IMG/VR virus record: IMGVR_UViG_3300047550_003785
Location: 1-47,240 of that record
Direction: 5' to 3' (one strand)
Source of the DNA: a virus
DNA: 47,240 bases
Positions within the stretch are counted from its first letter, which is position 1. Each line of letters opens with the position of its first letter. The notes under the pieces were generated by a model that saw only the letters and a list, made by a program, of their open reading frames with translations, had not been told where the DNA came from and searched no databases. Positions 1 through 47,240 of the stretch are shown here, piece by piece. A program made the translations under genes and the position numbers.

Positions 1-1310
1 CCAGAATTGGTAACATCGTAGCAAATACATCTTTAGTTGGTGGTACAATTACCGCTAACACCCAGTTAAATGTTGGTGATGCCAATGTTATCAATGGCAT
101 CGATGCATCGTCAGCCAGAATTGGTAACATCGTAGCAAATACATCTTTAGTTGGTGGTACAATTACCGCTAACACCCAGTTAAATGTTGGTGATGCCAAT
201 GTGGTGAATAGACTTGATGCATCTTCAGCCAGAATTGGTAACATCGTAGCAAATACATCTTTAGTTGGTGGTACAATTACCGCTAACACCCAGTTAAATG
301 TTGGTGATGCCAATGTGGTGAATAGACTGGATGCATCGTCAGCCAGAATTGGCAACATTGTTGCTAATACATCTTTAGTTGGTGGCACTATCACCGCTAA
401 CACCCAGTTAAATGTTGGTGATGCCAATGTGGTGAATAGACTGGATGCATCGTCAGCCAGAATTGGCAACATTGTTGCTAATACATCTTTAGTTGGTGGT
501 ACTATTACTGCCAATACACAGCTTAATATTGGCGCAGCCAATGTTGTAAACGGGATTGATGCTGGATCGGCTAGAATTGGTAATATTGTTGCTAATACAA
601 GCTTGATTGGTGGATCATTAACGGCTAACACTCAATTAAATGTTGGTGATGCCAATGTGGTGAATAGACTTGATGCATCTTCAGCCAGAATTGGTAACCT
701 TGTAGCCAATACAAGCTTGATTGGTGGAACATTAACGGCTAACACTCAATTAAATGTTGGTGAAGCCAATGTTATCAATGGCATCGATGCATCTTCAGCC
801 AGAATTGGTAACCTTGTAGCCAATACAAGCTTGATTGGTGGTACTCTTACTGCCAATACACAGCTTAATATTGGCGCAGCCAATGTTATCAATGGCATCG
901 ATGCATCTTCAGCCAGAATTGGTAACATCGTAGCAAATACATCTTTAGTTGGTGGTACAATTACCGCTAACACTCAATTAAATGTTGGTGCAGCCAACGT
1001 TGTAAACGGTATTGATGCTGGATCGGCTAGAATTGGTAGCATTTTTGCTAATACAAGCTTGATTGGTGGAACATTAACGGCTAACACTCAATTAAATGTT
1101 GGTGCAGCCAATGTTATCAATGGCATCGATGCATTGTCAGCCAGAATTGGTAACATCGTAGCAAATACATCTTTAGTTGGTGGTACAATTACCGCTAACA
1201 CCCAGTTAAATGTTGGTGATGCCAATGTTATCAATGGCATCGATGCATCGTCAGCCAGAATTGGTAATATTGTTGCTAATACAAGCTTGATTAGTGGCAC
1301 CATCACCGCC
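1..1310 (+). repeat. 114-bp tandem repeats encoding 38-aa fibre repeats
   Basis: The motif ccagaattggtaacatcgta recurs at spacing 114 (for example at positions 1, 115 and 229) through about 1270, with near-identical copies and a few variant blocks (gtg-aat-aga versus atc-aat-ggc). The period is a multiple of three, so copies can be gained or lost without a frameshift. The array is cut by the left window edge, so the total copy number is unknown. Confidence 0.9.
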
Positions 1311-4300
1311 AATACAACACTATCTGGTGGTTCTGCTAACATTATTAATGCAATTAATGCGGCATCAGCTAATATAGTTGGAATTGCTAATGCAAATACA
1401 GTTAATGTTGGAACATTATCGGCGGTAACAACAGTTATCGGTGGCACCATCACCGCCAATACAACACTATCTGGTGGTTCTGCTAACATTATTAATGCAA
1501 TTAATGCGGCATCAGCTAATATAGTTGGAATTGCTAATGCAAATACAGTTAATGTTGGAACATTATCGGCGGTAACAACAGTTATCGGTGGCACCATTGT
1601 AGCTAATACAAGTGTAACTTCTGCCACAGTAACAGCATCGGGTGACATTTATGGTGCCAGACTACAAGCAGGAAATATTGTTGCTAACACTAATTTGATG
1701 GCGGGAAGTATTAATGCCAACAGTTATCTGACTATCGCAAATTCACTCTATTCTGTAACAAGAAATAATGCAGTTACAATTACATCATATACAGGAAATG
1801 GAACAACTTTTGTAACTGGAGTTGCCACAAACCATGGGTTGGCTAACGGCGAATTAATTTTTATTAGTGGTGCTGCTGTCACACAAGCTCCATTAAATGG
1901 AGTATGGGCTGTTGTTAACACCGGTGTCAATTCAATCATGTTTTCAATTGCTCCAGGAACACTTCCTGTTGGCACAAATACAACTGCTATAGGTTCAACA
2001 ACAGTAGCTCGTTCATTTAACTATGTCACTTCATTAAATTCTAATAGTTACATTACAACAACAGAAGCATATGCAACAAGGTTACAAGCAGGAAATATTA
2101 TTGCTAACACAGAATTGATTGGTGGTACATTAACAGCCAATACAACCGCCAATGCGGCAACTGTGTCTGCATCAGGTGATATTTACGGTGCTAGATTACA
2201 GAGCGGAAACATTGTTGCTAATACATCTTTAGTTGGTGGTACAATCACCGCCAATACAACACTATCTGGTGGTTCTGCTAACATTATTAATGCAATTAAT
2301 GCGGCATCAGCCAATATTGTTGGTTTGATGAATGCTAATACAGGTAATGTTGGAACATTATCAGCCGTAACTCAGGTCATAGCAGGTTCTATAACATCAA
2401 ATGCTGGTATAACAGCAGCATCAGCGTCAATTGGAGCAGGCGGGCTAACAGTATCAGGCAATTTTACTATTACTGGTTCAACTATTAATGATTCGAATAC
2501 AGTAATACTACGCACTTCTTCACCTCTGTCCCAATCAGACAAAGCATACTTCATGATAAACAGAGGTCAAGTTGTACCTTCTGTATCTTCAACATCTACT
2601 TTGACACCCAGTTTAGGTACTAAAGTATTGGCGGTGACCGCAAGCAGTCATGGTTTCACAACAGGTGATCGTATCAGAGCAGAAAATACAGGTTCAAATT
2701 TCTTTGAAGGTATAGTAACAATAACAGGAACATCTGGCAATTTTACTTTCACTGTTGTCGCAGATAGTTCGACAGGATCAACCTCAGCATCATCATGGAC
2801 AATTACACTAGCATCCACTGGTGGAAAAACTAAAGACAGAGCGAATGCTGAAATACGTTGGGACAATGCATCAAATACATGGCAAATTCGTGACGTTGCT
2901 GGCGATCCAACTGTTTATACTAATATTGTTACTGAAAAATACACTGCAAACACAAACAATGCAGGTATCGTACAACTTAACGATTCAACCACAAGCACAA
3001 GTACAACATTAGCACCAACAGCCGCAGCAGTTAATACATTAAGACTTGCAGTGAATTCTTCTGTTACATCAAATGTTTTAAATTCTGGTGCAGCGGTAGT
3101 TGTTGCTCAGAATTTTGTGGAAGCAGTTGATGATTCTGATCCAGGTAATGGTAACTTCAAGTTTAATAATGCCACTATTAGTTCGGCAACTTTTGCTTAC
3201 ATGGACAATCTTGATGCTTATACAAATAATATCACAGGTATTCTTGCAACATATGCAGACTCAAACGGAGTAACAAAGGGTCATCTAAGATTCTCCGTAT
3301 TTGGTGCGTCAACAACAAAATATGCAGTATTCGCCGTGACCGGTTCAACAGCAGCAACAGGTTATTATAAAGTTGCATTGTCACATGTTTCAAGTGTGGG
3401 AACATTTGCTGCCTCTGATCTTGTCATGATTCAATTCAGTAGAGCTGGTAATATTGGACCACAAGGTCCATCAGGACCACAAGGTCCATCAGGACCACAA
3501 GGTCCATCAGGACCACAAGGTCCATCAGGACCACAAGGACCAAGTGGACCACAAGGTCCATCAGGACCACAAGGACCAAGTGGACCACAAGGTCCATCAG
3601 GACCACAGGGACCAAGTGGACCACAAGGTCCATCAGGACCACAAGGTCCATCAGGACCACAAGGTCCATCAGGACCACAAGGTCCATCAGGACCACAAGG
3701 TCCATCAGGACCACAGGGACCAAGTGGACCACAAGGTCCATCAGGACCACAAGGTCCATCAGGACCACAAGGACCAAGTGGACCACAAGGTCCATCAGGA
3801 CCACAAGGACCAAGTGGACCACAAGGTCCATCAGGACCACAAGGTCCATCAGGACCACAAGGTCCATCAGGACCACAGGGACCAAGTGGACCACAAGGTC
3901 CATCAGGACCACAAGGACCAAGTGGACCACAAGGTCCATCAGGACCACAAGGACCAAGTGGACCACAAGGTCCATCAGGACCACAAGGACCAAGTGGACC
4001 ACAAGGTCCATCAGGACCACAAGGTCCATCAGGACCACAAGGTCCATCAGGACCACAGGGACCTACAGGACCACAAGGTCCAACTGGTCCTACTGGCCCA
4101 ACTGGTCCAACTGGACCTTCAACTGCAATCAATGCAACCAATGACACAACAACAACAACATTGTATCCAGTAATGATAGGTGCAGCAGGTTCAAATCAAA
4201 CACCTAAAGTTACTACTTCATCATTCACGTTCGACGCATCAACAGGTGAATTGACCGCAACTACTTACAATTCATCTTCTGATGAAAGATTAAAAGATAA

Positions 4301-4544
4301 TATTGAAACTATAGAGAATGCATTAGCACTAATAACATCAATAAGGGGTGTGACGTTTAACTGGAAAAATACTGGTAAAAAAGGATTGGGTGTGATTGCT
4401 CAAGAAGTTGAAAAAGTTTTACCTGAAATTGTTTTACATAATGAAAATGGTTATAAAAGTGTGAATTATGATTCAATAATAGCTATTTTATTAGAGTCAA
4501 TTAAACAATTAAAACAAGAGATCGAAATATTAAAAAGGAAATAA
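1..4544 (+). CDS. Giant collagen-like tail fibre with C-terminal Peptidase_S74 chaperone (5' partial)
   Basis: The frame is open from the left edge (first full codon at 3), so the start lies outside the window and the GTG at 201 is not a real start. Order seen: about eleven 38-residue repeats with the core [20 protein letters not shown]; two near-identical 49-residue repeats around 1320-1600; mixed fibre sequence; a Gly-Pro-Gln/Gly-Pro-Ser collagen-like stalk at 3456-4121; a short knob; then a Peptidase_S74 domain from about 4270. The S74 motif [10 protein letters not shown] is intact, with the expected self-cleavage Ser (codon 4278-4280) and Lys five residues on (4293-4295). By family knowledge this domain helps trimeric fibres fold and then cuts itself off. 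A C-terminal coiled coil ([15 protein letters not shown]) follows. It is probably a long trimeric host-binding fibre; which T4 fibre it replaces cannot be told. Confidence 0.85.
1309..1605 (+). repeat. 147-bp direct duplication inside the fibre gene
   Basis: The block containing ttctgctaacattattaatg occurs at 1331 and again at 1478 (offset 147, or 49 codons), almost unchanged. A third partial copy starts near 2273. It is an in-frame internal duplication of the fibre shaft. Confidence 0.8.
3456..4121 (+). repeat. Collagen-like Gly-Pro-X repeat array (first fibre)
   Basis: The 18-base unit ggaccacaaggtccatca (GPQGPS) repeats with only minor synonymous changes (aag-tgg-acc and cag-gga variants), ending in [12 protein letters not shown]. 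Proline sits in the second position of each triplet (Gly-Pro-Y), and Y is Gln, Ser or Thr. The near identity at DNA level points to recent expansion or homogenisation. Confidence 0.92.
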
Positions 4545-6933: not shown

Positions 6934-7446
6934 ATGAATCAGGAAAAATTTATAAGTTCTTATATTGATTTACTTAATTCTACCTTAACAGAAGCTATAC
7001 AAAAAAACTTGACAGTTCTTGCTCAAAGAAATGTTTTTGAGCAAGAACTAAATGAGATTAAATCAAATGTAAATAATGAATCAAAATCTTTAAAAGATAC
7101 TTTGTCTCAAAGAGATAAAGAAATAAATGAATTGAAATCTCAACTAAATGATGCTAGACGCCAAAAAGATGTTGCAACTGGTGAAACAAATGAATTGAAG
7201 AAAAATGTTCAACACGTTGAAACTTTCAAAAGCGAACTCGTCAAAGCTAGAAGCGAAATAGACAGACTTAATAATCAATTACAAGAAAAAGAAAAAGTAA
7301 TCGATTCTCTTAATAATGAAAACAAAAATCTTCTTGAAAAAATTTCCAAAAAAGAAGAAGATGTCAAATCTATAAAAAAGCCCGTCAGAAAAAATACGGA
7401 GCAACTCGTAGAAACAGTAATTGTTAAGGACGCAGGCAGCTTTTAA
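6934..7446 (+). CDS. Coiled-coil protein, 170 aa, C-terminal GSF
   Basis: From about residue 25 to 150 the protein is almost entirely charged and heptad-like, with stretches such as [19 protein letters not shown] and [20 protein letters not shown]. This indicates a long alpha-helical coiled coil. It ends in KDAGSF, close to the GGTF endings of the two genes before it. Its stop overlaps the start of the collagen fibre (TAATG at 7444-7448). No family is recognised. The coupling to the fibre and the rod-like shape would suit a connector or an assembly chaperone, but this is inference. Confidence 0.6.
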
Positions 7447-10400
7447 TGTCAAACACAGTAATTCAAATAAAGAAAACCGGAGCAACAGGTAATACACCTG
7501 ATGCCAACTCACTTTTACCTGGTGAGTTGGCTATCAACTATGCTGACGGCAAACTTTTCTATAAAGATGATGCTAATGTAGTACAGGCGATCTATCTACA
7601 AAACCTGTATGAAACAATAAACGTCAATGGTACACTTTTAATACCAACTTCAATCACAGACATTCTTAATTTTCAATCAGGCAATGGCATAAGTCTGACG
7701 GCAAATTCAATAACAGAAACTATTTACATTGATGAAACATTATCACCAATAATTAATGCGGTATTTGCTTTTGCTAATACAAGATATAGTTCGAATGGTG
7801 GTACAATTTATGGCAGCACAACAATAACTGGTAATCTTGTTGTTGATACGACCGCAAATGCAGTTTCAATCACGACTGAAAATAGTTATTCCGACAAATT
7901 TATAGCAAACAGTGTTGTTGCAAACACTGGCGTTATTGGAAATGCTCTAGTATCCAATACAAGTATCTTTGCAAATACAATTATTGCAAACACTTCACTA
8001 TCAGTTTTGGGACCATCAACAATTTCTGGTAATTTAGTTACAAATTATTTGTCAGTAAATAATGATGTAATTATTTCTGGTAATTTAACCGTACTCGGTA
8101 ATACACTTACAGTTAATACACAAACCCTCTCAATTGACGATTCGTTAATTTCTCTTGCAAAAAATAACACCACTGATGTGGTTGATATTGGTTTTTATGG
8201 GCACTATGCAAACACTCCAAATCTTCATACTGGTTTAGTTAGACATGCAACGGATAAAATCTATTATCTTTTTGATAATCTACAGACAGAACCGTCTTCT
8301 ACAATTGATGTTGCAAACGCTACAATTGCAACGATCAATGCAAACGTAATTTCTACAAGCATTACACTAAGAGGGTTTGATCCTCTTGCGCATGCTAATG
8401 GTGCTTTTAATAAAGCAAACGCAGCATACGATTATGCTAACAACATTTCATTGACACCTGGCCCAACTGGACCACAGGGACCACAAGGTAACATAGGACC
8501 AACTGGACCTACTGGACCAACTGGTGCTCAAGGTGATACTGGCCCAACTGGACCACAGGGACCACAAGGTAACATAGGACCAACTGGACCTACTGGACCA
8601 ACTGGTGCTCAAGGTGATACTGGCCCAACTGGACCACAAGGTCCAATAGGTCCAATAGGACCATCAGGCCCAACAGGACCACAGGGACCACAGGGAGATA
8701 TTGGTCCAACAGGACCTCAAGGTCCAATCGGTCCAATAGGACCATCAGGTCCAACAGGACCTATTGGACCAACAGGACCACAGGGACCACAGGGAGATAT
8801 TGGTCCAACAGGACCTCAAGGTCCAATCGGTCCAATAGGACCATCAGGTCCAACAGGTCCTACTGGACCCATAGCCGGTTCAAATCAACAAATTATTTAC
8901 AATAATAATGGTTCACCTGGTGCATCGGCAAATTTAACATGGGATGGGACAATATTACGTGCAACTCAACTTATAGTAACAAATTCTGCTGGTGATGAAG
9001 GTGGAGAAATATTACTAGCGAAACCTGTGTCCAATGTAACATTAAGTGGTACTGGTATTACTATTGATGCTTATCAAAATAAAATAAGATTTTTTGAGCA
9101 GGGTGGTAATGCAAGAGGTGTATATATTGACTTGACAGAAGCAGCTAATGGAGCTTCGACAAATTTATTGGCAGGTGGAGCAACCGGACCAACTGGGCCA
9201 CAAGGTCCAATTGGACCATCGGGTCCAACAGGACCACAGGGACCGATAGGTCCCATTGGTCCAATAGGTCCAAGTGGGCCAACAGGACCGCAAGGACCGA
9301 TAGGTCCCATTGGTCCATCGGGTCCACAAGGTCCAATAGGACCATCAGGCCCAACAGGACCACAAGGTCCAATAGGACCATCAGGCCCAACAGGACCACA
9401 GGGACCTCAAGGTGATATTGGTCCATCGGGTCCACAAGGTCCAATAGGACCATCAGGTCCAACAGGACCACAAGGGCCGATAGGTCCCATTGGTCCATCG
9501 GGTCCACAAGGTCCAATCGGACCATCAGGTCCAACAGGACCACAGGGTCCAATAGGACCAATTGGACCAATCGGACCATCGGGTCCAACAGGACCACAGG
9601 GACCGATAGGTCCCATTGGTCCAATAGGTCCAAGTGGGCCAACAGGACCACAGGGACCAATAGGACCAATCGGTCCAATAGGACCATCAGGACCAACTGG
9701 TCCACAAGGTCCAATAGGACCAATAGGACCAATCGGTCCAATAGGACCATCAGGCCCAACAGGACCACAGGGGCCTGCTGGACCAATCGGTCCAATAGGA
9801 CCATCAGGACCAACTGGTCCACAAGGTCCAATAGGACCAATAGGACCAATCGGTCCAATAGGACCATCAGGTCCACAAGGTCCAATAGGACCAATAGGAC
9901 CAATCGGTCCAATAGGACCATCAGGTCCACAAGGTCCAATAGGACCATCAGGTCCAACAGGACCACAGGGTCCAATAGGACCAATTGGACCAATTGGACC
10001 ATCAGGTCCAACAGGACCACAGGGTCCAATAGGACCAATTGGACCAATCGGACCATCAGGTCCAACAGGACCACAGGGTCCAATAGGACCAATAGGACCA
10101 ATTGGACCAATTGGACCATCAGGTCCAACAGGACCACAAGGACCGATAGGTCCCATTGGTCCAATAGGACCATCAGGTCCAACAGGACCACAGGGTCCAA
10201 TAGGACCAATTGGACCAATCGGACCATCAGGTCCAACAGGACCACAAGGACCTACAGGAGCAACATCATATTCAATTCCTGATACCGGCGCTGCTCCTCG
10301 ATATATACTTTTAGGTACGTGGTCAACTGCTCAGTCTGGGCAAACACTTTTAATTGATATTGTTGCACATGCAGGTTACAATGCAGATACAACTCAAAAT

Positions 10401-11612
10401 CAATACACTAAATTATATTTTAAAACATCAAACGGTTCTTCAAACGTTGGCGGTTTTTATGGTGACGGATTAGCAACAAGATTTACAACTCTTGGTACTA
10501 ATAGTTCTTCACCTAGTACAATAAGAGTGATACAAAATTCAACAACAAGTTATGAAATTTATGGAAATTTTGGCACTTACACCAATGGTTCAACATATCA
10601 AGTTCAGACAGGTAGTGGAACAACCTGGACACATTCAGGAACTATATATATTGGTACACCAACAGGAACATATATTGATATCACGCCGGCAACGGCAATA
10701 GGTCCAACTGGTCCAACTGGTCCACAAGGACCCATTGGTCCAATCGGTCCAATTGGTCCAATAGGTCCAATCGGACCATCAGGACCAACTGGTCCACAAG
10801 GACCCATTGGTCCAATAGGTCCAATAGGTCCAATAGGTCCAATCGGACCATCAGGACCATCAGGACCACAGGGTCCAATAGGACCAATCGGACCAATCGG
10901 ACCATCAGGACCACAGGGTCCAATAGGACCAATCGGACCAATCGGTCCAATCGGACCATCAGGACCACAGGGTCCAATAGGTCCAATCGGACCAATCGGT
11001 CCAATCGGACCATCAGGACCACAGGGTCCAATAGGACCAATAGGACCAATCGGTCCAATAGGACCATCAGGTCCAACAGGACCACAGGGTCCAATAGGAC
11101 CAATAGGACCAATCGGTCCAATAGGACCATCAGGTCCAACAGGACCACAGGGTCCTGCTGGACCATCAACAACTATAAACGCAACAGATGATACAACAAC
11201 TGCTGCAAATCATTACCCCGTTTTTGTAGCCGCAGTTGGTTCAAATCAAACAGCCGAAGCTTCAAGCACAAAATTATATTTTAATCCAAGCACAGGAACT
11301 TTAAACGCTACCATCTTCAATTCTCTTTCGGATAAAAACAAAAAAGAGAACATTCAAACTATTGAAAATTCACTAAATAAAATTTTAGGAATGAGAGGTG
11401 TCAGCTTTAATTGGATAGACACAAAACAAAAATCAATTGGTATAATTGCACAAGAAGTCGAAGAAATTATACCAGAGATAGTGTCTACAAATGAAAATGG
11501 CACCAAATCAATTTCTTATGACAGCGTTATTGGTTTACTGATAGAAGCAATTAAAGAGCAACAAAAACAAATAGATAATTTAACTGAGACAGTAAGGAGA
11601 TTAGACAAATGA
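7446..11612 (+). CDS. Collagen-like tail fibre with three Gly-Pro-X stalks and C-terminal Peptidase_S74 domain
   Basis: Domains in order: an N-terminal fibre domain ([33 protein letters not shown]); a beta-rich shaft; collagen-like block 1 (8460-8873); a globular insert (8874-9185); block 2 (9186-10262); a second insert of about 145 residues containing [20 protein letters not shown] and [11 protein letters not shown], a type seen as a fibre head domain; block 3 (10701-11168); a knob; and an S74 chaperone domain. The S74 motif is [10 protein letters not shown]: the cleavage Ser (11328-11330) and the Lys at +5 (11343-11345) are kept, while the usual Arg at +3 is Asn. Knob and S74 are clearly related to those of the first fibre. 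The final tail is a coiled coil. This is a long, probably trimeric adhesin. Confidence 0.88.
8460..8873 (+). repeat. Collagen-like repeat block 1
   Basis: Triplets of Gly-Pro-Thr, Gly-Pro-Gln and Gly-Pro-Ile with GAQGDTGPT and GDIGPT variants. The first about 170 bases are duplicated nearly exactly (8460-8553 versus 8551-8640). Confidence 0.85.
9186..10262 (+). repeat. Collagen-like repeat block 2 (longest)
   Basis: About 360 residues of Gly-Pro-X with the module [15 protein letters not shown] repeated in many length variants. Y positions are mainly Ile, Ser, Thr and Gln, with one GPAGPI. Both inserts that flank the block are non-collagenous. Confidence 0.9.
10701..11168 (+). repeat. Collagen-like repeat block 3
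   Basis: This is the same Gly-Pro-Ile/Ser/Thr/Gln triplet array, ending [12 protein letters not shown] just before the knob and S74 domain. Confidence 0.88.
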
Positions 11613-11938
11613 CGGTGTATGCAAATCTTGAAAATGGCGTACTAAAGGGGCAATATGATTTACTCCCTGAAAAATGGAATGGGCACGACAATTTTCATTT
11701 AAAATGTAAAGTCGATGAAAACTTTATGCGTGAAAATGGTTTCGTTAAGATTATTCGAGACACCACACCATTTAATCCAGAAACACATAAAATGTCAGAT
11801 TATTTACTTTATGAAGTTATTGATGGTGAAGTTTATGAACATAGAAATATTTTAGAAATTCCTAAACCTTCTCAGGAAGAAAATACACCTCCTCAGGAAG
11901 AAAATACACCTCCTGAAGAAGAAAATACGACAGAGTAA
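11609..11938 (+). CDS. Small fibre-associated protein, 109 aa (possible assembly factor)
   Basis: It starts within the stop of the collagen fibre (ATGA, 4-base overlap), so translation is coupled. Residues 1-80 contain [17 protein letters not shown] and [18 protein letters not shown]. The tail has three copies of an EENTPP-type acidic repeat ([19 protein letters not shown]). The length, fibre-distal position and 'PE-x-W-x-G...NF' pattern recall tail-fibre assembly proteins, but the similarity is weak and unconfirmed. The acidic Pro-rich tail is probably disordered. Confidence 0.5.
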
Positions 11939-11948
11939 TTAGTATTTA

Positions 11949-14900
11949 ATGCCAACCACTAATTTTAAAATCAGTTCAGGTTCCGATTTAGACGCTCTAT
12001 TTGAACCAATCGGGTCTGCATCAAAAAGGGCTGATGTAAGTTATCAAGTTACTGGGGCTGATATCTCCAACTATTACTATCCAGTCAGTGCTGGAGGTAC
12101 TGCTTTTGGTACCACCAACCTACAATCTAGTGGTGTGGATATAGGTACATTGTTTGCGGCAATTGGTACAGTTGTTTCATCTAAAGGTCCACTTTACCAA
12201 TGGGGAATTAATAGATATGGACAAATAGCATTTACAAGTGATACTTATAGTTGGACAATTGTATCAGCAAGAGGCAGTTATAATACCTTAGCAATTCGTT
12301 CAGATAATTTATTATTTGCTTGGGGGCGTAATCAAAATGGTTCACTAGGTGATGAAACAACCATACGTAGATTATCACCAGTACAAATAGGATCCAGTTC
12401 TTGGACAGCGGTGGCATCAGGTTCAAGACATACATTAGCCATTCGTTCGGATGGTATATTATTTACTTGGGGTCTAAATTCTTTAGGTGAATTAGGTGAT
12501 GGTACAACGGTTAATAAATCATCTCCTGTACAAATAGGATCCAGTTCTTGGACTGCTGTGGCCACTTCAACCGGCACACATTCAGTAGCCATTCGTTCGG
12601 ATGGTGCATTATTTACTTGGGGCGGTTCATCCTTTGGTCAATTAGGTGATGGTACAACGGTTAATAAATCATCTCCTGTACAAATAGGATCCAGTTCTTG
12701 GACAGCCATAACAGCCGGCACTTTTCATACAGCAGCCGTTCGTTCTGGTGGCACATTATTTACTTGGGGCCTAGGAAATTATGGGCGTTTAGGATTTGTT
12801 AACGATTCTTTGAGTTGGACAGTTGTATCGGCGGCTCCAGGTTCAATAAGCAGTCATACAGCAGCCATTCGTTCGGATGGTATTTTGTTTGCTTGGGGTA
12901 CTAATCAAGTTGGTCAATTAGGTGATGGTACAACGGTTAATAAATCATCTCCTGTACAAATAGGATCCAGTTCTTGGACAGCCGTATCAGTCGGAAATAG
13001 TCATACAGCAGCCATTCGTTCGGATGGTAGATTATTTACTTGGGGTCTAAATTCTTCAGGTCAATTAGGTGATAATTCATTGCTTAGTAAAACATCTCCT
13101 GTACAAATAGGATCCAGTTCTTGGACAGTCATTTTCAGTGGAGCTAGTCATACAGTAGCCATTCGTTCTGGTGGTACACTGTTCACTTGGGGTATAAATT
13201 CTTCAGGTCAATTAGGTGATAATTCAACGCTTAATAAATCATCTCCTGTACAAATAGGATCCAGTTCTTGGACAGCCATTTCGGGTGGAGGTTTTCATAC
13301 ACTGGCCATTCGTTCCGGAGGGACATTATTTAGTTGGGGGGCCGGAGCAAATGGTCGCCTTGGTGATAGTACAACGCTTAGTAAATCATCTCCTGTACAA
13401 ATAGGATCCAGTTCCTGGACGGCTGTGTCGGCCGGCAACTTTCATTCAGCAGCCATTCGTTCCGGTGGCACATTATTTGTTTGGGGTTCAAATGCTGTCG
13501 GGCAAACTGGTGATGGTACAGTTGTCACTAAGTCATCTCCAGTACAAATAGGTTCCAGTTCCTGGACGGCTGTGTCGGCCGGTCTCTCTGCTACAGCAGC
13601 CATTCGTTCTGATGGTGCATTATTCACTTGGGGTCAAGGAAATTATGGCCGACTTGGTAGTGGCACCACAACTAGCAGATCGTCTCCAGTACAAGTAGGA
13701 TCAAGTTCTTGGACAATTATAACAGTAGGTCCAACTCATACCGCAGCCATTCGTTCCGGTGGCACATTATTTGCTTGGGGTCTAAATGCTACAGGTCAAT
13801 TAGGTGATAATACAACGGTTAATAAATCATCTCCTGTTCAATTAGGCACTAATGAACCATTTAATGTAAGTTCTCCCACACAAGTGGGATTAAGTTCTTG
13901 GACTGCTGTGGCAGCAGGCGGGAACCATACAGCAGCTATTCGTTCTGGCGGCACATTATTTACTTGGGGTTTTAATAGTAATGGTCAACTTGGTGATGGC
14001 TCAGTTACTAACAAAAATTCTCCAGTACAAATAGGTTCCAGTTCTTGGAATGCTGTGGCAGCAGGGGACAGACACACAGCAGCTATTCGTTCTGGCGGCA
14101 CATTATTTATTTGGGGACAAGGAACATATGGTCAATTAGGTGATGGCTCATTTGCTAGTAAATCGTCTCCAGTACAAATAGGTTCCAGTTCCTGGACGGC
14201 TGTGTCAGCCGGGAGCACTCATACAGCGGGCATACTTTCTAATAATTTATTATTTCTTTGGGGGTCTTCATATCATGGTTCATTAGGATTTAATAATTTT
14301 TTAACTGTAACATCTCCAATACAATTAGGAAATAATCCTGCGGATCGATCATCTCCAGTACAAATAGGATTGAGTTCTTGGACAGTTGTATCAAACGGCG
14401 GCTCACATACGGCAGCCATTCGTTCCGATGGTATATTATTTACTTGGGGAATAGGCTCAAATGGTCGACTTGGTGATAACTCAGTTACTAGTAAATCGTC
14501 TCCAGTACAAATAGGATCCAGTTCTTGGACTGCCATATCAGCAGGATACGGACATACAGCAGCCATTCGTTCCGATGGTATATTATTTACTTGGGGTGCG
14601 GCCGCCTCCGGTCAATTAGGTGATGGCTCAATTACTAGTAAATCGTCTCCAGTACAAATAGGTTCCAGTTCTTGGACAGCCGTATCAGCAAGAAACCACA
14701 CAGCAGCCATTCGTTCTGGTGGCACATTATTTACTTGGGGTTTAAATAATTATGGTCAATTAGGTGATGGGACAACAGGTACAATTAATAACAAAAATTC
14801 TCCAGTACAAATAGGATCCAGTTCTTGGACAACCGTATCAGCAGGGGCCAGACACACAGCAGCTATTCGTTCTGGCGGCACATTATTTACTTGGGGCGGT

Positions 14901-15320
14901 GGATCCTATGGTCAATTAGGTGATGGTACAGCCGTTAATAAATCATCTCCAGTACAAATAGGTTCCAATTCTTGGACAGCCATATCAGCCAGCGATTTTC
15001 ATACAGCAGGCATTCAGACTGATCAATTATTATTTACTTGGGGTCTAAATATTTATGGTCAATTAGGTGATGGCTCAGTTGCTAGTAAATCGTCTCCAGT
15101 ACAAATAGGTTCCAGTTCTTGGACAGCCGTATCAGCAGGAGACGGACATACAGCAGCCATTCGTTCGGATGGTAGATTATTTACTTGGGGTCTAAATTTT
15201 TCAGGTCAATTAGGTGATAATACAACGGTTAATAAATCATCTCCTATACAAATAGGATCCAGTTCTTGGACAGTCATTTCCGCTAGAACTTTTTTTACAT
15301 CAGCTTTGAAAAAATCATGA
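11949..15320 (+). CDS. RCC1-type beta-propeller protein, about 21 blades, 1123 aa
   Basis: After an N-terminal segment of about 80 residues, the protein consists of units of about 51 residues with the RCC1 signature: HTAAIRSDGxLFTWGxNxxG, QLGDGTTVNKSSPVQIG, SSSWTAVSAG. I count 20 full units plus half a unit at each end (LYQWGINRYGQIAF at the start, SSSWTVISARTFFTSALKKS at the end). The two halves could close one ring. RCC1 domains form seven-bladed propellers, so about 21 blades would suit three rings. That is inference. Spacing is irregular after units 4, 11 and 14, where linkers are longer or shorter. No catalytic residues are visible. It is probably a virion adhesin or scaffold next to the fibres. 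Confidence 0.85.
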   Translation: MPTTNFKISSGSDLDALFEPIGSASKRADVSYQVTGADISNYYYPVSAGGTAFGTTNLQSSGVDIGTLFAAIGTVVSSKGPLYQWGINRYGQIAFTSDTYSWTIVSARGSYNTLAIRSDNLLFAWGRNQNGSLGDETTIRRLSPVQIGSSSWTAVASGSRHTLAIRSDGILFTWGLNSLGELGDGTTVNKSSPVQIGSSSWTAVATSTGTHSVAIRSDGALFTWGGSSFGQLGDGTTVNKSSPVQIGSSSWTAITAGTFHTAAVRSGGTLFTWGLGNYGRLGFVNDSLSWTVVSAAPGSISSHTAAIRSDGILFAWGTNQVGQLGDGTTVNKSSPVQIGSSSWTAVSVGNSHTAAIRSDGRLFTWGLNSSGQLGDNSLLSKTSPVQIGSSSWTVIFSGASHTVAIRSGGTLFTWGINSSGQLGDNSTLNKSSPVQIGSSSWTAISGGGFHTLAIRSGGTLFSWGAGANGRLGDSTTLSKSSPVQIGSSSWTAVSAGNFHSAAIRSGGTLFVWGSNAVGQTGDGTVVTKSSPVQIGSSSWTAVSAGLSATAAIRSDGALFTWGQGNYGRLGSGTTTSRSSPVQVGSSSWTIITVGPTHTAAIRSGGTLFAWGLNATGQLGDNTTVNKSSPVQLGTNEPFNVSSPTQVGLSSWTAVAAGGNHTAAIRSGGTLFTWGFNSNGQLGDGSVTNKNSPVQIGSSSWNAVAAGDRHTAAIRSGGTLFIWGQGTYGQLGDGSFASKSSPVQIGSSSWTAVSAGSTHTAGILSNNLLFLWGSSYHGSLGFNNFLTVTSPIQLGNNPADRSSPVQIGLSSWTVVSNGGSHTAAIRSDGILFTWGIGSNGRLGDNSVTSKSSPVQIGSSSWTAISAGYGHTAAIRSDGILFTWGAAASGQLGDGSITSKSSPVQIGSSSWTAVSARNHTAAIRSGGTLFTWGLNNYGQLGDGTTGTINNKNSPVQIGSSSWTTVSAGARHTAAIRSGGTLFTWGGGSYGQLGDGTAVNKSSPVQIGSNSWTAISASDFHTAGIQTDQLLFTWGLNIYGQLGDGSVASKSSPVQIGSSSWTAVSAGDGHTAAIRSDGRLFTWGLNFSGQLGDNTTVNKSSPIQIGSSSWTVISARTFFTSALKKS
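12190..15290 (+). repeat. RCC1 tandem DNA repeats (about 150-bp period)
   Basis: The string caaataggatccagttcttg and close variants recur about every 150 bases across the gene. Copies differ mostly at third codon positions and in the short loops between strands. Confidence 0.85.
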
Positions 15321-15344
15321 TTGAAAAATAAAAATGGAGCAATA

Positions 15345-16376
15345 ATGCATTTGATAGATCAACAACTTAATTTAATGATACGTGGGCGTTTTGAAGAAGG
15401 ATGGAAATTAGCAGAGCAAATGGAAGCTAATGATCCTGATGATCCCAGAGCTAAGTTTAATAGGGGATGGTTTTTAATTAATCAAGGCAATCTTCAAGAT
15501 GGTTTTAAATGTCTTGAATATGGGCGCCCACTGAAAGTTTATGGCTCAGGAAAAATTAATACAACAAAAACAATTTGGAATGGGCAAGACGATCTAACGG
15601 ATAAAACAGTTATTCTCAATATGGAATGTGGTTATGGTGATCAAATCATCTATGCAAGGTTTGCAACAGAAGTGTGGAAAAAAGGAGGTAAAGCAATACT
15701 TTGTTGTGATAAATCTTTGCATTCTTTATTTTCTAGGATTCCCGGAACACATAAGTGTATAACATTAGATGAAGTGTCCTCTACATATCATGACTATTGG
15801 ATTCCAGGGTTCAGTTGTAGCTGGTTATTCGGGCATACTTTTGAAACATTACCAAAACAACCTTTCATTTTTGCAAAACAAGAAAGCATTGATGTTTGGA
15901 AAACAATTTTAAATACAAAAAAGAAAATAAAAATAGGCATTCGTTGGAGCGGAAGCCCATTATTTGAACATCAACAATTTCGTATATTTCCTCCCGAAAA
16001 ATTAATTAATCTTTATAAAGACAACGATCATATACAGTTTTATAGTCTGCAAAGAGATACGGATGTGAGGGAATTACCTGTTGAAATTTCTGATCTGCAA
16101 CATTTAATAATTTCTTGGGAAGACACTGTTGCATGTATCGAAAATCTCGACTTGGTAATAAGTTCCTGTACAAGTATAGCACATTTATCAGCAGCCATGG
16201 GAAAACCAACTTGGGTCATAGTGCCTATTTTACCTTACCATGTTTGGGCATATGGCGATAGACATAGCCCATGGTATGAAGATACTACAAAGGTATTCAG
16301 ACAAAAGAAGTTTGCCAAATGGGATGAAACGTTTGAAGAGGTTTCACAAGAACTTAAAAAACTTTTTCCAAAATAA
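15345..16376 (+). CDS. TPR-containing glycosyltransferase, heptosyltransferase (GT9/GT41)-like
   Basis: Residues 1-60 form TPR-like helices (GRFEEGWKLAEQMEANDPDD, KFNRGWFLINQGNLQDGFKC). The rest is a GT-B type transferase: NMECGYGDQIIYARF in the N-lobe, KIGIRWSGSPLFEHQQFR at the domain switch, and a donor-site region DLVISSCTSIAHLSAAMGKP followed by the HSPWYEDT...FRQKKFAKW ending. This is typical of TPR-linked family 9/41-like enzymes. I chose the ATG at 15345 because GGAG lies five bases before it; a TTG at 15321, right after the preceding stop, is in frame but has no site. With ADP-heptose genes downstream, a heptosyl donor is plausible. It directly follows the RCC1 gene. The acceptor is unknown. 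Confidence 0.78.
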   Translation: MHLIDQQLNLMIRGRFEEGWKLAEQMEANDPDDPRAKFNRGWFLINQGNLQDGFKCLEYGRPLKVYGSGKINTTKTIWNGQDDLTDKTVILNMECGYGDQIIYARFATEVWKKGGKAILCCDKSLHSLFSRIPGTHKCITLDEVSSTYHDYWIPGFSCSWLFGHTFETLPKQPFIFAKQESIDVWKTILNTKKKIKIGIRWSGSPLFEHQQFRIFPPEKLINLYKDNDHIQFYSLQRDTDVRELPVEISDLQHLIISWEDTVACIENLDLVISSCTSIAHLSAAMGKPTWVIVPILPYHVWAYGDRHSPWYEDTTKVFRQKKFAKWDETFEEVSQELKKLFPK

Positions 16377-16390: not shown

Positions 16391-16426
16391 GTTTATATTA
16401 CTATATGATTTTTAAATGGAGTGATC

Positions 16427-17227
16427 ATGAAAAAAGAAAATTTATATTTTATTGCTGGCTTACCTAGAGCAGGTTCAACTTTAATTACCAATATATTAAA
16501 ACAAAATCCAAAAATACATGGTGAATCTGTCAGTTCACTTGCTTCAATAATTGGAACTGTTAATGCTAGTTGGTCTAATTTTGATGCCAATAAAGAGTAT
16601 AGAAATGATCAAGCAAAAGTTGGTGTTTTAAAATCTATACTTGAAGGTTATTATTCTCATATTGACAAATCAATAGTTTTTGATAAAGATAGGGGATGGG
16701 TTCCTTTAATTGGGCTTATTGAAGCTATCACACAACAACAAGTCAAAATGATTATTTGTGTCAGAAATCCTGCTGAAATATTGACTTCATTTGAAAGATT
16801 GAGAAAAGACAATCCTTTGTTCTTTACAAATGTTGATGCTAATCTAAGAGAAGGATCTAATATATCTTCAAGAGCATATTATTATGCTGGTCCTGATGGT
16901 GCATTAGGGTTAAGCCATAGGAATATAAGAGATGCTATTGTAATGGGTTATCTTGACCGATTTTTGTTCATAGATTATAACAGATTTTGCAATAGCCCAA
17001 AATCTCAGACTAAAAGAATTTATGATTTTTTTGAATTACCAGATTTTCAGCATGATTTTTCCAAAATAGAACAAACTGAAAACTACAATGATCTTGCAGT
17101 TGGTTTACCAAACCTTCACAAAGTTAAACCAACACTCGAAAAAACCACGGTAAATTGTGTAGAATATCTAGGGTTGGATTTATACGATCAATATAATCGT
17201 GAAATTTTTTGGAATGCATGGATATAA
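16427..17227 (+). CDS. Sulfotransferase family protein (first copy)
   Basis: The N-terminal AGLPRAGSTLI (about residues 10-20) is the 5'-phosphosulfate binding loop that PAPS-dependent sulfotransferases use. IICVRNPAEILTSFERLRKD is the matching 3'-phosphate motif. The length of 266 residues is normal for the family. The start is ATG 16427, five bases after GGAG; the GTG at 16421 overlaps that site and is less likely. It would transfer sulfate from PAPS to a sugar or protein hydroxyl. The donor could come from the APS kinase at 31922. It opens the sugar cassette. Substrate unknown. Confidence 0.82.
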   Translation: MKKENLYFIAGLPRAGSTLITNILKQNPKIHGESVSSLASIIGTVNASWSNFDANKEYRNDQAKVGVLKSILEGYYSHIDKSIVFDKDRGWVPLIGLIEAITQQQVKMIICVRNPAEILTSFERLRKDNPLFFTNVDANLREGSNISSRAYYYAGPDGALGLSHRNIRDAIVMGYLDRFLFIDYNRFCNSPKSQTKRIYDFFELPDFQHDFSKIEQTENYNDLAVGLPNLHKVKPTLEKTTVNCVEYLGLDLYDQYNREIFWNAWI

Positions 17228-26092: not shown

Positions 26093-26102
26093 AAGGTGAA
26101 TG

Positions 26103-27386
26103 ATGAAAAGCACTATTGAATATTTTGAGAAGAACGGATACGTAGTTTTAAAAGATGCATTGACTAAACAACAATGTAAACAGCTAACAAAACACATGTT
26201 CGATTTGCATGAAAATGGTAAGTTGGTCAAAGATGAACAATGCCCACTTTCAGATGCAATATATGGTGATCCAATCTTCGATAACATTTTACAAAAATTT
26301 GCAAAGCCTATTGGTGATGCAGTGGGAAAAGAATTACTACCCACATACACATATGCAAGAATTTATCGACCAGGCGAAATATTAAAAAAACATAAAGATA
26401 GGCCAGCATGTGAAATAAGCGCAACAATGACTTTGGGTTTTGATTCGGAACCTATTTGGCCTATATTATTTGACGAAGAAAAGGAAATACCCGTTGAATT
26501 GGATGTGGGGGAAATGGCAGTATATAAGGGCTGTGACATTCTACATTGGAGAACTCCTTTTAAAGGGCAATGGCACGTTCAGGTTTTCTTGCATTATGTG
26601 GATGCAAATGGTCCATATAAAAATCATTTCAAAGATGGAAGAGATTCATTTGGTGTTCAAAAACAATCAAATGTTGAAAATAAAAAACGTTCTTTTATAA
26701 ATGAATTGTCTGAGCAACAAAGTAAAAATATAGAACAACAAATCACAGTACCTAAACCGATTTTTAATTCTGTTATCATACCAAGTGGCGATAATTATTT
26801 TCCTGGTTACTTTTGTATTGATTCAAAGAATGTGCCAGAATTAAAATTCAATTTGTCTGAATGCAATTCAATAATTTCTCTATCGAAAAAAAGATATCCA
26901 ACAACAGCCAGTGTTGGTGGTTCTACTGAAAATAGTAGAATTTCTAAAGATATAAGATCGGCCAATATTTTCAATATAGAAAATAATGAAGAAAATAAAT
27001 GGATCTATGAAAAAATAGCAAACATTGTTTCTTTTGTAAACGCTGTGCATTTTAAATATGACATTTCAGGAATTACACACGGAATTCAGTTGATTGAATA
27101 TTGTTCTGAAGATAAAGTACAGGGTCATTATGATTGGCATGTCGATTCTGGAAATGGGCAACCAGCATCTAGAAAAATATCTGTAACCATTCAGCTATCG
27201 GATCCGGAAGATTATGAGGGGTGCGAACTTATTATAAATAACCATGCTCATATAGTTACCGGAACAAAAGAAAAAGGTTCAGTACACCTTTTTCCCAGTT
27301 ACATGTTACATAAAGTAGAACATGTTACCAAAGGTACAAGATATGCATTAGTAATTTGGGTGCATGGTCCAGGAAGATTTAAATAA
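26103..27386 (+). CDS. Double-domain 2OG-Fe(II) oxygenase (prolyl hydroxylase type C-terminal half)
   Basis: Two oxygenase domains are fused. The N-terminal domain has the iron HxD at residues 97-99 (LKKHKDRPACEIS) and a distal His in GCDILHWRTPF. The C-terminal domain has HYDWHVDSGNG, with HxD at residues 346-348, the distal His in SYMLHKVEHV and the 2OG-binding Arg in GTRYALVIW. The C-terminal half looks like the P4Hc/PiuC type; the N-terminal half is less typical. The ATG at 26103 fits AAGG six bases upstream better than the ATG at 26100. The enzyme would hydroxylate a substrate using oxygen and 2-oxoglutarate. It shares a late module with collagen-like and propeller genes, so a virion protein is a conceivable target. 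Confidence 0.82.
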   Translation: MKSTIEYFEKNGYVVLKDALTKQQCKQLTKHMFDLHENGKLVKDEQCPLSDAIYGDPIFDNILQKFAKPIGDAVGKELLPTYTYARIYRPGEILKKHKDRPACEISATMTLGFDSEPIWPILFDEEKEIPVELDVGEMAVYKGCDILHWRTPFKGQWHVQVFLHYVDANGPYKNHFKDGRDSFGVQKQSNVENKKRSFINELSEQQSKNIEQQITVPKPIFNSVIIPSGDNYFPGYFCIDSKNVPELKFNLSECNSIISLSKKRYPTTASVGGSTENSRISKDIRSANIFNIENNEENKWIYEKIANIVSFVNAVHFKYDISGITHGIQLIEYCSEDKVQGHYDWHVDSGNGQPASRKISVTIQLSDPEDYEGCELIINNHAHIVTGTKEKGSVHLFPSYMLHKVEHVTKGTRYALVIWVHGPGRFK

Positions 27387-39313: not shown

Positions 39314-39856
39314 ATGGCTTTTAATGTAGCAGAGTTCAGAGCAAATCTTGTAGGAGATGGTGCTCGTCCAAATCTGTTCCAAGTCACAATGACTTTTCCA
39401 ACATTTAGTACAGAGGCAACAACTTCTGCACAAGCATTAACATTTTTATGTAAGAGCGCACAGTTGCCAGGTTCAACACTTGGCACTGTCCCACTGTTTT
39501 ACTTTGGGCGTGAATTAAAATTTGCTGGAAATAGGAATTTCGCTGACTGGACAATTACAATAATCAACGATGAAAACTTCAAAGTTCGTAAAGCTTTTGA
39601 ATCTTGGATGAACGGTATTAATTCACATACAACTAATCTCAGAAACGGAGTTGCAGGTTCACCAACAGGTTATTCTGTCGATGCGAAAGTAAATCAATAT
39701 GACAAAGGCGGAAATATTATCAAAGCATATAACTTTGTAGGTGCATTCCCTGTTGACTTAGCACCAATTGATCTTGACTGGGGTTCGAATGATGCAATCG
39801 AAGAATTTTCGGTAACCCTAGCGTATCAGTGGTGGGAATCGGATACTACTTCTTAA
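39314..39856 (+). CDS. 19: Tail tube protein gp19
   Basis: At 180 residues (T4 gp19 is 163) it follows the sheath gene directly. RPNLFQVTMTFPTFSTEATT, CKSAQLPGSTLGTVPLFYFG, NFADWTITIINDENFKVRKA and PIDLDWGSNDAIEEFSVTLA fit the tube family. It stacks as hexameric rings that form the rigid inner tail. A GC-rich hairpin follows the stop. Confidence 0.94.
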   Translation: MAFNVAEFRANLVGDGARPNLFQVTMTFPTFSTEATTSAQALTFLCKSAQLPGSTLGTVPLFYFGRELKFAGNRNFADWTITIINDENFKVRKAFESWMNGINSHTTNLRNGVAGSPTGYSVDAKVNQYDKGGNIIKAYNFVGAFPVDLAPIDLDWGSNDAIEEFSVTLAYQWWESDTTS

Positions 39857-46818: not shown

Positions 46819-47240
46819 ATGAGTGGGCTAATCACAAAACCTAAGAATACTAATCTATTACAACCTACCAAATATTCTGTTAGTTTTCCAGAAATTTCAG
46901 ATACGATTTATTTTTGCCAAAAAGTAAATTTACCTGGTGTTCAAGTCAGTGAATTACCACATGTAACTCCTAATCTCGATCTTTTTGTAGCTGGTACCAA
47001 AATCACATATGGTTCTTTTGATATAGAATTTTTGGTAAATGAGGATTTGACCTCGTGGCTGTATATTCATAATTGGATAAAAGGTATTACGACAGACATG
47101 AACTATCGATCATTTCCAAAAGTTCAAGCCATATTAACCATTTATTCTAATCAAAACAATCCAAAATTCAGAATAAAATATAATGATATTTTTCCATTAA
47201 ATTTGGGTGATATAGAATTCGATACCACTTTATCGGCTGA
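46819..47240 (+). CDS. Tail tube-fold protein, gp19/gp54-like (3' partial)
   Basis: This ORF is cut by the window end. It has a strong ribosome site (AAGGAGG, spacing five). The translation begins MSGLITKPKNTNLLQPTKYS and includes YFCQKVNLPGVQVSELPHVT, then FVAGTKITYGSFDIEFLVNE and DLTSWLYIHNWIKGIT. The 'Q-x-x-x-LPG ... G-x-x-x-x-Y-x-x-F-x-I-x-F-x-V-x-E-D-x-x-x-W' pattern is that of tube-like tail proteins such as gp19 and baseplate relatives. In related phages a tail completion gene (3) follows 23; which member this is cannot be settled from the partial sequence. Confidence 0.6.
   Translation, partial: MSGLITKPKNTNLLQPTKYSVSFPEISDTIYFCQKVNLPGVQVSELPHVTPNLDLFVAGTKITYGSFDIEFLVNEDLTSWLYIHNWIKGITTDMNYRSFPKVQAILTIYSNQNNPKFRIKYNDIFPLNLGDIEFDTTLSA

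Follow-up and report, generated by a model that had tools for sequence, protein, structure and literature searches.

The window, a 47,240-base virus fragment from IMG/VR, encodes in its tail-fibre region a protein of 1123 aa that is probably an adhesin with three seven-blade RCC1 propellers, built one inside another from a single chain. We also lean, a little less firmly, towards a general rule, in which phages would build open-ended rods by inserting propellers in propellers, the short (S) and long (L) loops between blades acting as opening and closing brackets and every ring closing on itself. Read as rings, the arrays of this protein and its relatives range from one (locus L253) to about 12 (84 units, loci L038 and L153).

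The gene is one intact open reading frame with an ATG start (Table 1). The protein passes the curated cut-offs of both Pfam RCC1 (PF00415; E 8e-205, 663.9 bits, cut-off 21.7) and the RCC1-like domain (PF25390; E 3e-232, 770.7 bits, cut-off 150), and is a member of the RCC1 repeat family; because these scores are so high, a chance repeat is excluded. The IMG/VR record itself carries 20 RCC1 matches. The chain holds 21 units anchored by an LFxWG motif, mostly of 49 aa each, and exactly 21 SPVQ strand segments, and thus the figure of about 21 blades given in a preliminary description of this DNA is correct. Each blade of the 14-blade structural model described below consists of four strands (SPVQI, SWTAVS, HTAAIR and LFTWG), SPVQI being the first. 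The first element of the array is strand 4 of a blade (LYQWG, aa 82) and the last are strands 1-3 (SPIQI/SWTVIS/FFTSAL), so that 20 blades are whole and one is assembled from both chain ends, as the same description had proposed in terms of 20 full units and complementary half units.

Table 1. Features of the RCC1-array gene and its neighbours (window coordinates; ring assignments are those of the proposed nested arrangement)
Feature	Position	Strand	Basis or remark
RCC1-array protein, 1123 aa, 21 units	11949..15320	+	ORF, unit parse, Pfam
N-terminal head, aa 1-79, repeated F-x-v-x-G-x-DLDxLFxxIG motif	11949..12185	+	likely attachment domain
Putative ring B (outer), N-terminal half blade, strand 4 LYQWG, aa 80-92	12186..12224	+	
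S1, short loop without SPVQ strand, putatively opening	12225..12239	+	
Putative ring C, first part, blades 1-4, aa 98-282	12240..12794	+	
S5, short loop without SPVQ strand, putatively opening	12795..12809	+	
Putative ring A (innermost), blades 5-11 and closing strand SPVQL, aa 286-633	12804..13847	+	
L12, long loop with two SPVQ segments (SPVQLG ... SPTQVG), putatively closing	13827..13889	+	
Putative ring C, second part, blades 12-14 and closing strand SPIQL, aa 641-794	13869..14330	+	
L15, long loop with two SPVQ segments (SPIQLG ... SPVQIG), putatively closing	14313..14369	+	
Putative ring B, remainder, blades 15-20 and C-terminal strands 1-3, aa 801-1123	14349..15317	+	
Upstream fibre, collagen repeats and Peptidase_S74 chaperone	7446..11612	+	tail fibre PHROGs
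109-aa ORF, N-terminal relative of tail-fibre-assembly-like proteins	11609..11938	+	32% identity, E 6e-11
Conserved downstream ORF (HLIDQQLNLMIRGRFEEGW family)	15321..16376	+	same place in relatives
Sulfotransferase-like gene	16421..17227	+	conserved further downstream

The arrangement of the blades is written in the loops between them, which we defined as running from the end of a unit's WG...G hairpin to the next SW strand. A normal loop has 17 aa and contains the segment SSPVQIG. Two loops of the 1123-aa protein, those of unit 1 (8 aa) and unit 5 (7 aa), are short and lack the SPVQ segment; two others, those of unit 12 (31 aa) and unit 15 (30 aa), are long and contain it twice. We call them S loops (strand missing) and L loops (strand doubled), respectively. 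The irregular linkers noticed previously after units 4, 11 and 14 are real and correspond to the loops of units 5, 12 and 15; that list was incomplete, the short loop of unit 1 having been missed. Across relatives, 93% of S loops contain no SPVQ segment and 91% of normal loops contain one, while at least two occur in 55% of L loops, the strand being clearly doubled in only some half of them. Since an S loop removes strand 1 and an L loop carries two, a segment from S to L runs from strand 2 to strand 1. It thus begins and ends as the solved UVR8 constructs do. The outer ring, which has strand 4 first and strands 1-3 last, matches the points at which HERC2 RLD3 and RCC1 begin in alignments.

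The loops of the 1123-aa protein spell the word S1 S5 L12 L15, which is balanced and gives rings of [7,7,7]. The assignment of blades 5-11 to ring A, blades 1-4 and 12-14 to ring C, and blade 15 to the end to ring B is the one that gives seven blades per ring and four strands per blade, and it matches the division that had been suggested from the sequence alone. The chain would first lay one strand of the outer ring B and exit via S1, then build blades 1-4 of ring C and exit via S5. The whole of ring A would next be built inside ring C, its closure resembling that of UVR8, with a first blade devoid of strand 1 that would be supplied by the first SPVQ segment of L12. The second SPVQ segment of L12 would start blade 12, bringing the chain back into ring C to complete blades 12-14. 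In the same way, the first segment of L15 would close ring C and the second would resume ring B, itself closed by the C-terminal strands 1-3 against the N-terminal strand 4 in the manner of RCC1 and HERC. Ring A would thus lie within ring C, and ring C within ring B. Two antiparallel linkers would join each inserted ring to its host, and the assembly should therefore be stiffer than beads on a single string.

Unit counts among relatives are consistent with a ring of seven as the building block. We parsed RCC1 units with a cyclic-profile Viterbi model in 165 sequences (the window and related loci); this parser replaced HMMER domain counts, which were dropped for unit counting. Complete arrays cluster at 7, 14, 21, 28, 35, 42 and 49 units, with single cases near 63 and 84. 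Exact multiples of seven, as in the 21 units of the 1123-aa protein, make up 46 of the 78 non-redundant complete viral arrays of at least 10 units, where 11 were expected (p 8e-20), the parser being liable to err by one at array ends. Bacterial RCC1 arrays (L165-L244: Hymenobacter, Chryseobacterium, myxobacteria and others), found with a query itself partly 14 units long, mostly have 7 or 14 units in plain tandem and no bracket loops. A first scan for bacterial arrays had found none, its patterns probably being too specific. In L004, blocks of about seven RCC1 units alternate with collagen within one S74 fibre. Because of the viral counts, the bacterial 7 and 14 and the L004 blocks, a closed seven-blade ring is likely the building block of these arrays. 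The largest are found in L038 and L153, each with about 84 RCC1 units in one ORF of 4385-4389 aa. L155 and L002 are also listed among the giant RCC1 proteins; in L002, a frameshift seems to have divided one array into two overlapping ORFs (2025+ and 2486 aa).

The pairing of S and L loops in relatives follows the same number. In 58 of 86 cases the nearest (innermost) L loop lies at a distance of 7 from its S loop, and 94 of 151 stack-matched pairs are a multiple of 7 apart (p about 1e-41), a result that is similar under five threshold choices, with thresholds set after the data had been seen and relatives that are partly non-independent. The S-S spacing peaks at 4 and the L-L spacing at 3, which sum to seven; as neither peaks at 7, duplication of seven-unit blocks was rejected as the source of the loop periodicity. 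Eleven distinct architectures of up to 42 units are exactly balanced, every ring, including the outer one, having seven blades; random loop placement balances arrays of 28-42 units at a frequency of 9.5e-5 or less. We also applied an optimal-bracketing test that ignores the sign of the loop-length deviation. Its observed score was reached by 1/200 shuffles for the window, 0/200 for both L100 and L111, and 0/60 for each of L098, L101 and L105. In L001/L111, the short loops have lost only 2-3 residues and one loop is longer; together they fit three nested rings, with 16/16 deviance units explained (0/200 shuffles).

The words read from individual loci are varied: S1 S5 L12 L15 (L100), S1 S6 L13 L15 (L114), S1 L8 S12 L19 (L117), S1 S3 L10 L15 S17 S21 L28 L31 (L098), S6 S10 S14 L21 L24 L27 (L118) and S1 S5 S9 S13 S17 L24 L27 L30 L33 L36 (L104), and L105 is a bracketed array of 42 units. 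The smallest case, L021, has 14 units and the word S1 L8. The word of L104, balanced once a spurious trailing half unit is removed, would correspond to at least five nested levels if loops are read as brackets. One exception is L110, which has six S and five L loops in 46 units and is unbalanced. The arrays L110:1227-8234 and L104:2000-8455 are 97.5% identical and differ by one 552-base block of four blades, so that L110 reflects either misassembly or a genuine intermediate that is unbalanced. No bracket parse was obtained for L075 and several giant arrays, and some arrays of 21 or 28 units have no brackets.

Could the three rings simply follow one another? In such a tandem (blades 1-7, 8-14 and 15-21) the irregular loops would be incidental. 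Plain tandems of seven do exist, among bacterial arrays and in some phages (L030, L061), and several plain tandems have an extension at hairpin 7|8 (e.g. extra residues after unit 7 in L030 and L061). The 1123-aa protein shows no irregularity at hairpins 7|8 and 14|15 or at loop 8, and it is loops 1, 5, 12 and 15 that deviate instead; in bracketed arrays generally, these tight hairpins are mostly unaltered. Moreover, a tandem leaves unexplained the pairing of S and L loops, their opposite strand content and the 4+3 split of ring C, and we consider it unlikely.

The main point in favour of a tandem comes from structure prediction. AlphaFold2 applied to the full chain with four sequences returned a solenoid-like model with a pLDDT of 50, whose fold matches were beta-helix lyases; as the sequence is unmistakably RCC1, this model was set aside as failed. 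Blades 1-14, modelled with 14 register-matched sequences, gave a model of low confidence (pLDDT 66, pTM 0.50). Residues 343-705 of this model (blades 8-14) form a clean ring that fits UVR8 over 346 residues (2.0 A, Z 46), residues 2-345 (blades 1-7) form a poorer ring, and the two rings are consecutive, not nested. This model, the sole usable structural data, speaks weakly against nesting. Its ring border (residues 324-346) is among the least confident stretches, and it seems to assign no strand 1 to blade 5 and to leave the second SPVQ segment of L12 unpaired. As the repeats are near-identical and the alignment is shallow, the program was free to join sequence neighbours; for all these reasons we gave the model limited weight. 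At the sequence level, the earlier suggestion of three rings of seven, one interrupted by another, is well supported by comparisons that it did not draw on: the counts, the S/L brackets, the strand bookkeeping and the UVR8-like termini. The sequential rings of the 14-blade model oppose it.

The neighbourhood of the gene bears on its function. The fragment carries T4-like terminase, sheath, tube, portal, scaffold and capsid genes. A cyanophage identity, assumed at first, was abandoned, the capsid protein being closest to those of Methylophilales and Pelagibacter phages (64.6%). The order of a collagen and S74 fibre, a small ORF, the RCC1 gene, a conserved ORF and a sulfotransferase recurs in relatives. 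The small ORF is in relatives a tail-fibre-assembly-like protein, of which the window copy matches the N-terminal part only; the RCC1 gene thus lies in the fibre gene cluster and adjoins an assembly-like gene. Elsewhere in the window, a fibre protein at 3-4544 has many near-identical repeats followed by a long GPQGPS collagen stretch and a chaperone-like C-terminus. Of the ORF at 26100-27386, the first half resembles ferrochelatase-labelled PHROGs and the second half a 2OG-Fe(II) oxygenase PHROG, and two separate tail-tube (phrog_45) genes, 39314-39856 and 46819-47238, flank the portal-capsid block.

The head that precedes the array is related to a stand-alone protein, gp19 (phrog_11610), encoded beside the tail-sheath gene in Xanthomonas FoX phages, and is likely an attachment domain. 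The same head occurs in L253:6469-7743 with only one seven-unit ring, possibly a basal form of the family. Within units, variation is concentrated at position 6 and positions 8-9 (after WG) and at positions 38-39 (after SAG), most other positions being near fixed. Strand order would place the post-WG and post-SAG variable loops on one face, 14 per ring, and such a ring of variable loops would be suited to binding. The Pseudomonas phages Littlefix and PollyC also have RCC1 repeats in proteins whose annotation is tail fibre or names a T7 tail-fibre N-terminal domain, and mass spectrometry detected the GAP32 RCC1 protein GAP_001 in virions (PMC5259590). This last result, and the many phages that carry such genes, lend no support to the view that RCC1 repeats are unexpected in a phage virion cluster. 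A tail-fibre adhesin is thus favoured, both by the gene's surroundings and by the proteomics of GAP32 virions; the 1123-aa protein most likely serves host-surface recognition and would be displayed by virions via its N-terminal head.

A DNA-organising or host-takeover protein that is no part of a fibre is improbable. PHROGs places RCC1 families under DNA metabolism, and the authors of the phAPEC6 study proposed a role in DNA ordering for its RCC1 proteins (PMC7247149), an idea that rests on the family name. The position in the fibre cluster beside an assembly-like gene, the relationship of the head to a tail-cluster protein, the variability resembling that of a binding face and the RCC1 blocks inside the collagen/S74 fibre of L004 argue against it.

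If we return to the threaded rings, closure might also take place between chains: the S-to-L segments would close on themselves and the 4+3 remainders would pair with another copy of the protein, as in a swapped oligomer such as a fibre trimer. Phage fibres are commonly trimeric, the upstream fibre has collagen repeats and an S74 domain, and the bracket counts are alike for closure within and between chains. However, closure within the chain is simpler, the linkers bring both parts together, and a Pfam search of the 1123-aa protein found neither a collagen nor an S74 domain; such a swap therefore seems quite improbable. As for one open superhelix or a single 21-blade ring, the failed full-length model does resemble a beta-solenoid, but its pLDDT is only 50. 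Each RCC1 relative of solved structure that the searches returned is a single propeller, such propellers are seven-bladed and the counts in sevens would go unexplained, so that we give this arrangement hardly any credence.

If nesting by brackets is true, recursive insertion can take the place of tandem addition in the growth of repeat proteins, each domain staying closed, and the number and topology of domains can be read from loop lengths alone. The label "regulator of chromosome condensation" (DNA metabolism in PHROGs) would then be wrong for these phage genes, and RCC1 arrays would be candidates for host-recognition rods. Bracketed arrays would also provide a hard and well-defined test case for structure prediction, since the blades are near-identical and loops alone set ring membership.

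RCC1 propellers and phage RCC1 proteins were already known; nested RCC1 rings appear to be new. Searches of the PDB by sequence and fold, and of literature collections of partial coverage, found no RCC1 ring nested in another, and in these collections, which cover part of the literature, we found no report of a bracket-like rule for any propeller. The solved UVR8, RCC1, HERC1/2 and RPGR belong to the same repeat and fold family, with seven blades per ring, and the terminal strand order of UVR8 is that proposed for the inserted rings of the 1123-aa protein. They differ by having one ring per chain segment, with no ring within a ring found, whereas we read the phage array as nested.

Among phages, GAP32 (GAP_001), phAPEC6, 121Q and PBECO4 also encode RCC1 proteins. 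Those predicted in GAP32 and PBECO4 have about 385 aa, the size of a single ring, in contrast to the one long chain described here; the genes occur in several copies in phAPEC6, 121Q and PBECO4, but not in GAP32. In the Synechococcus phages S-SRM01 and BUCT-ZZ01, the RCC1 genes likewise lie in the fibre cluster, with a sulfotransferase nearby in S-SRM01. BUCT-ZZ01 has 14 units, while S-SRM01 has three genes of about 7 units each, its rings being spread over genes, and neither has S/L loops of the type seen in the window. The propeller of Staphylococcus phage phi11 Gp45 is of a different family and is not an RCC1 array. Gp45 is a receptor-binding protein, and its beta-propeller is part of a host-recognition device (PMC4901313).

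A parallel in blade number is DDB1, whose propellers are interlocked in the chain and not strictly consecutive. DDB1 has three seven-blade propellers and 21 blades in one chain, and Rik1 and CPSF160 are also three-propeller proteins, Rik1 with 21 blades (PMC3271066). DDB1 and the 1123-aa protein thus share 21 blades and, in our reading, three seven-blade rings. Unlike the phage arrays, DDB1 is WD40-like and eukaryotic, has a fixed number of rings and shows no regular series of brackets.
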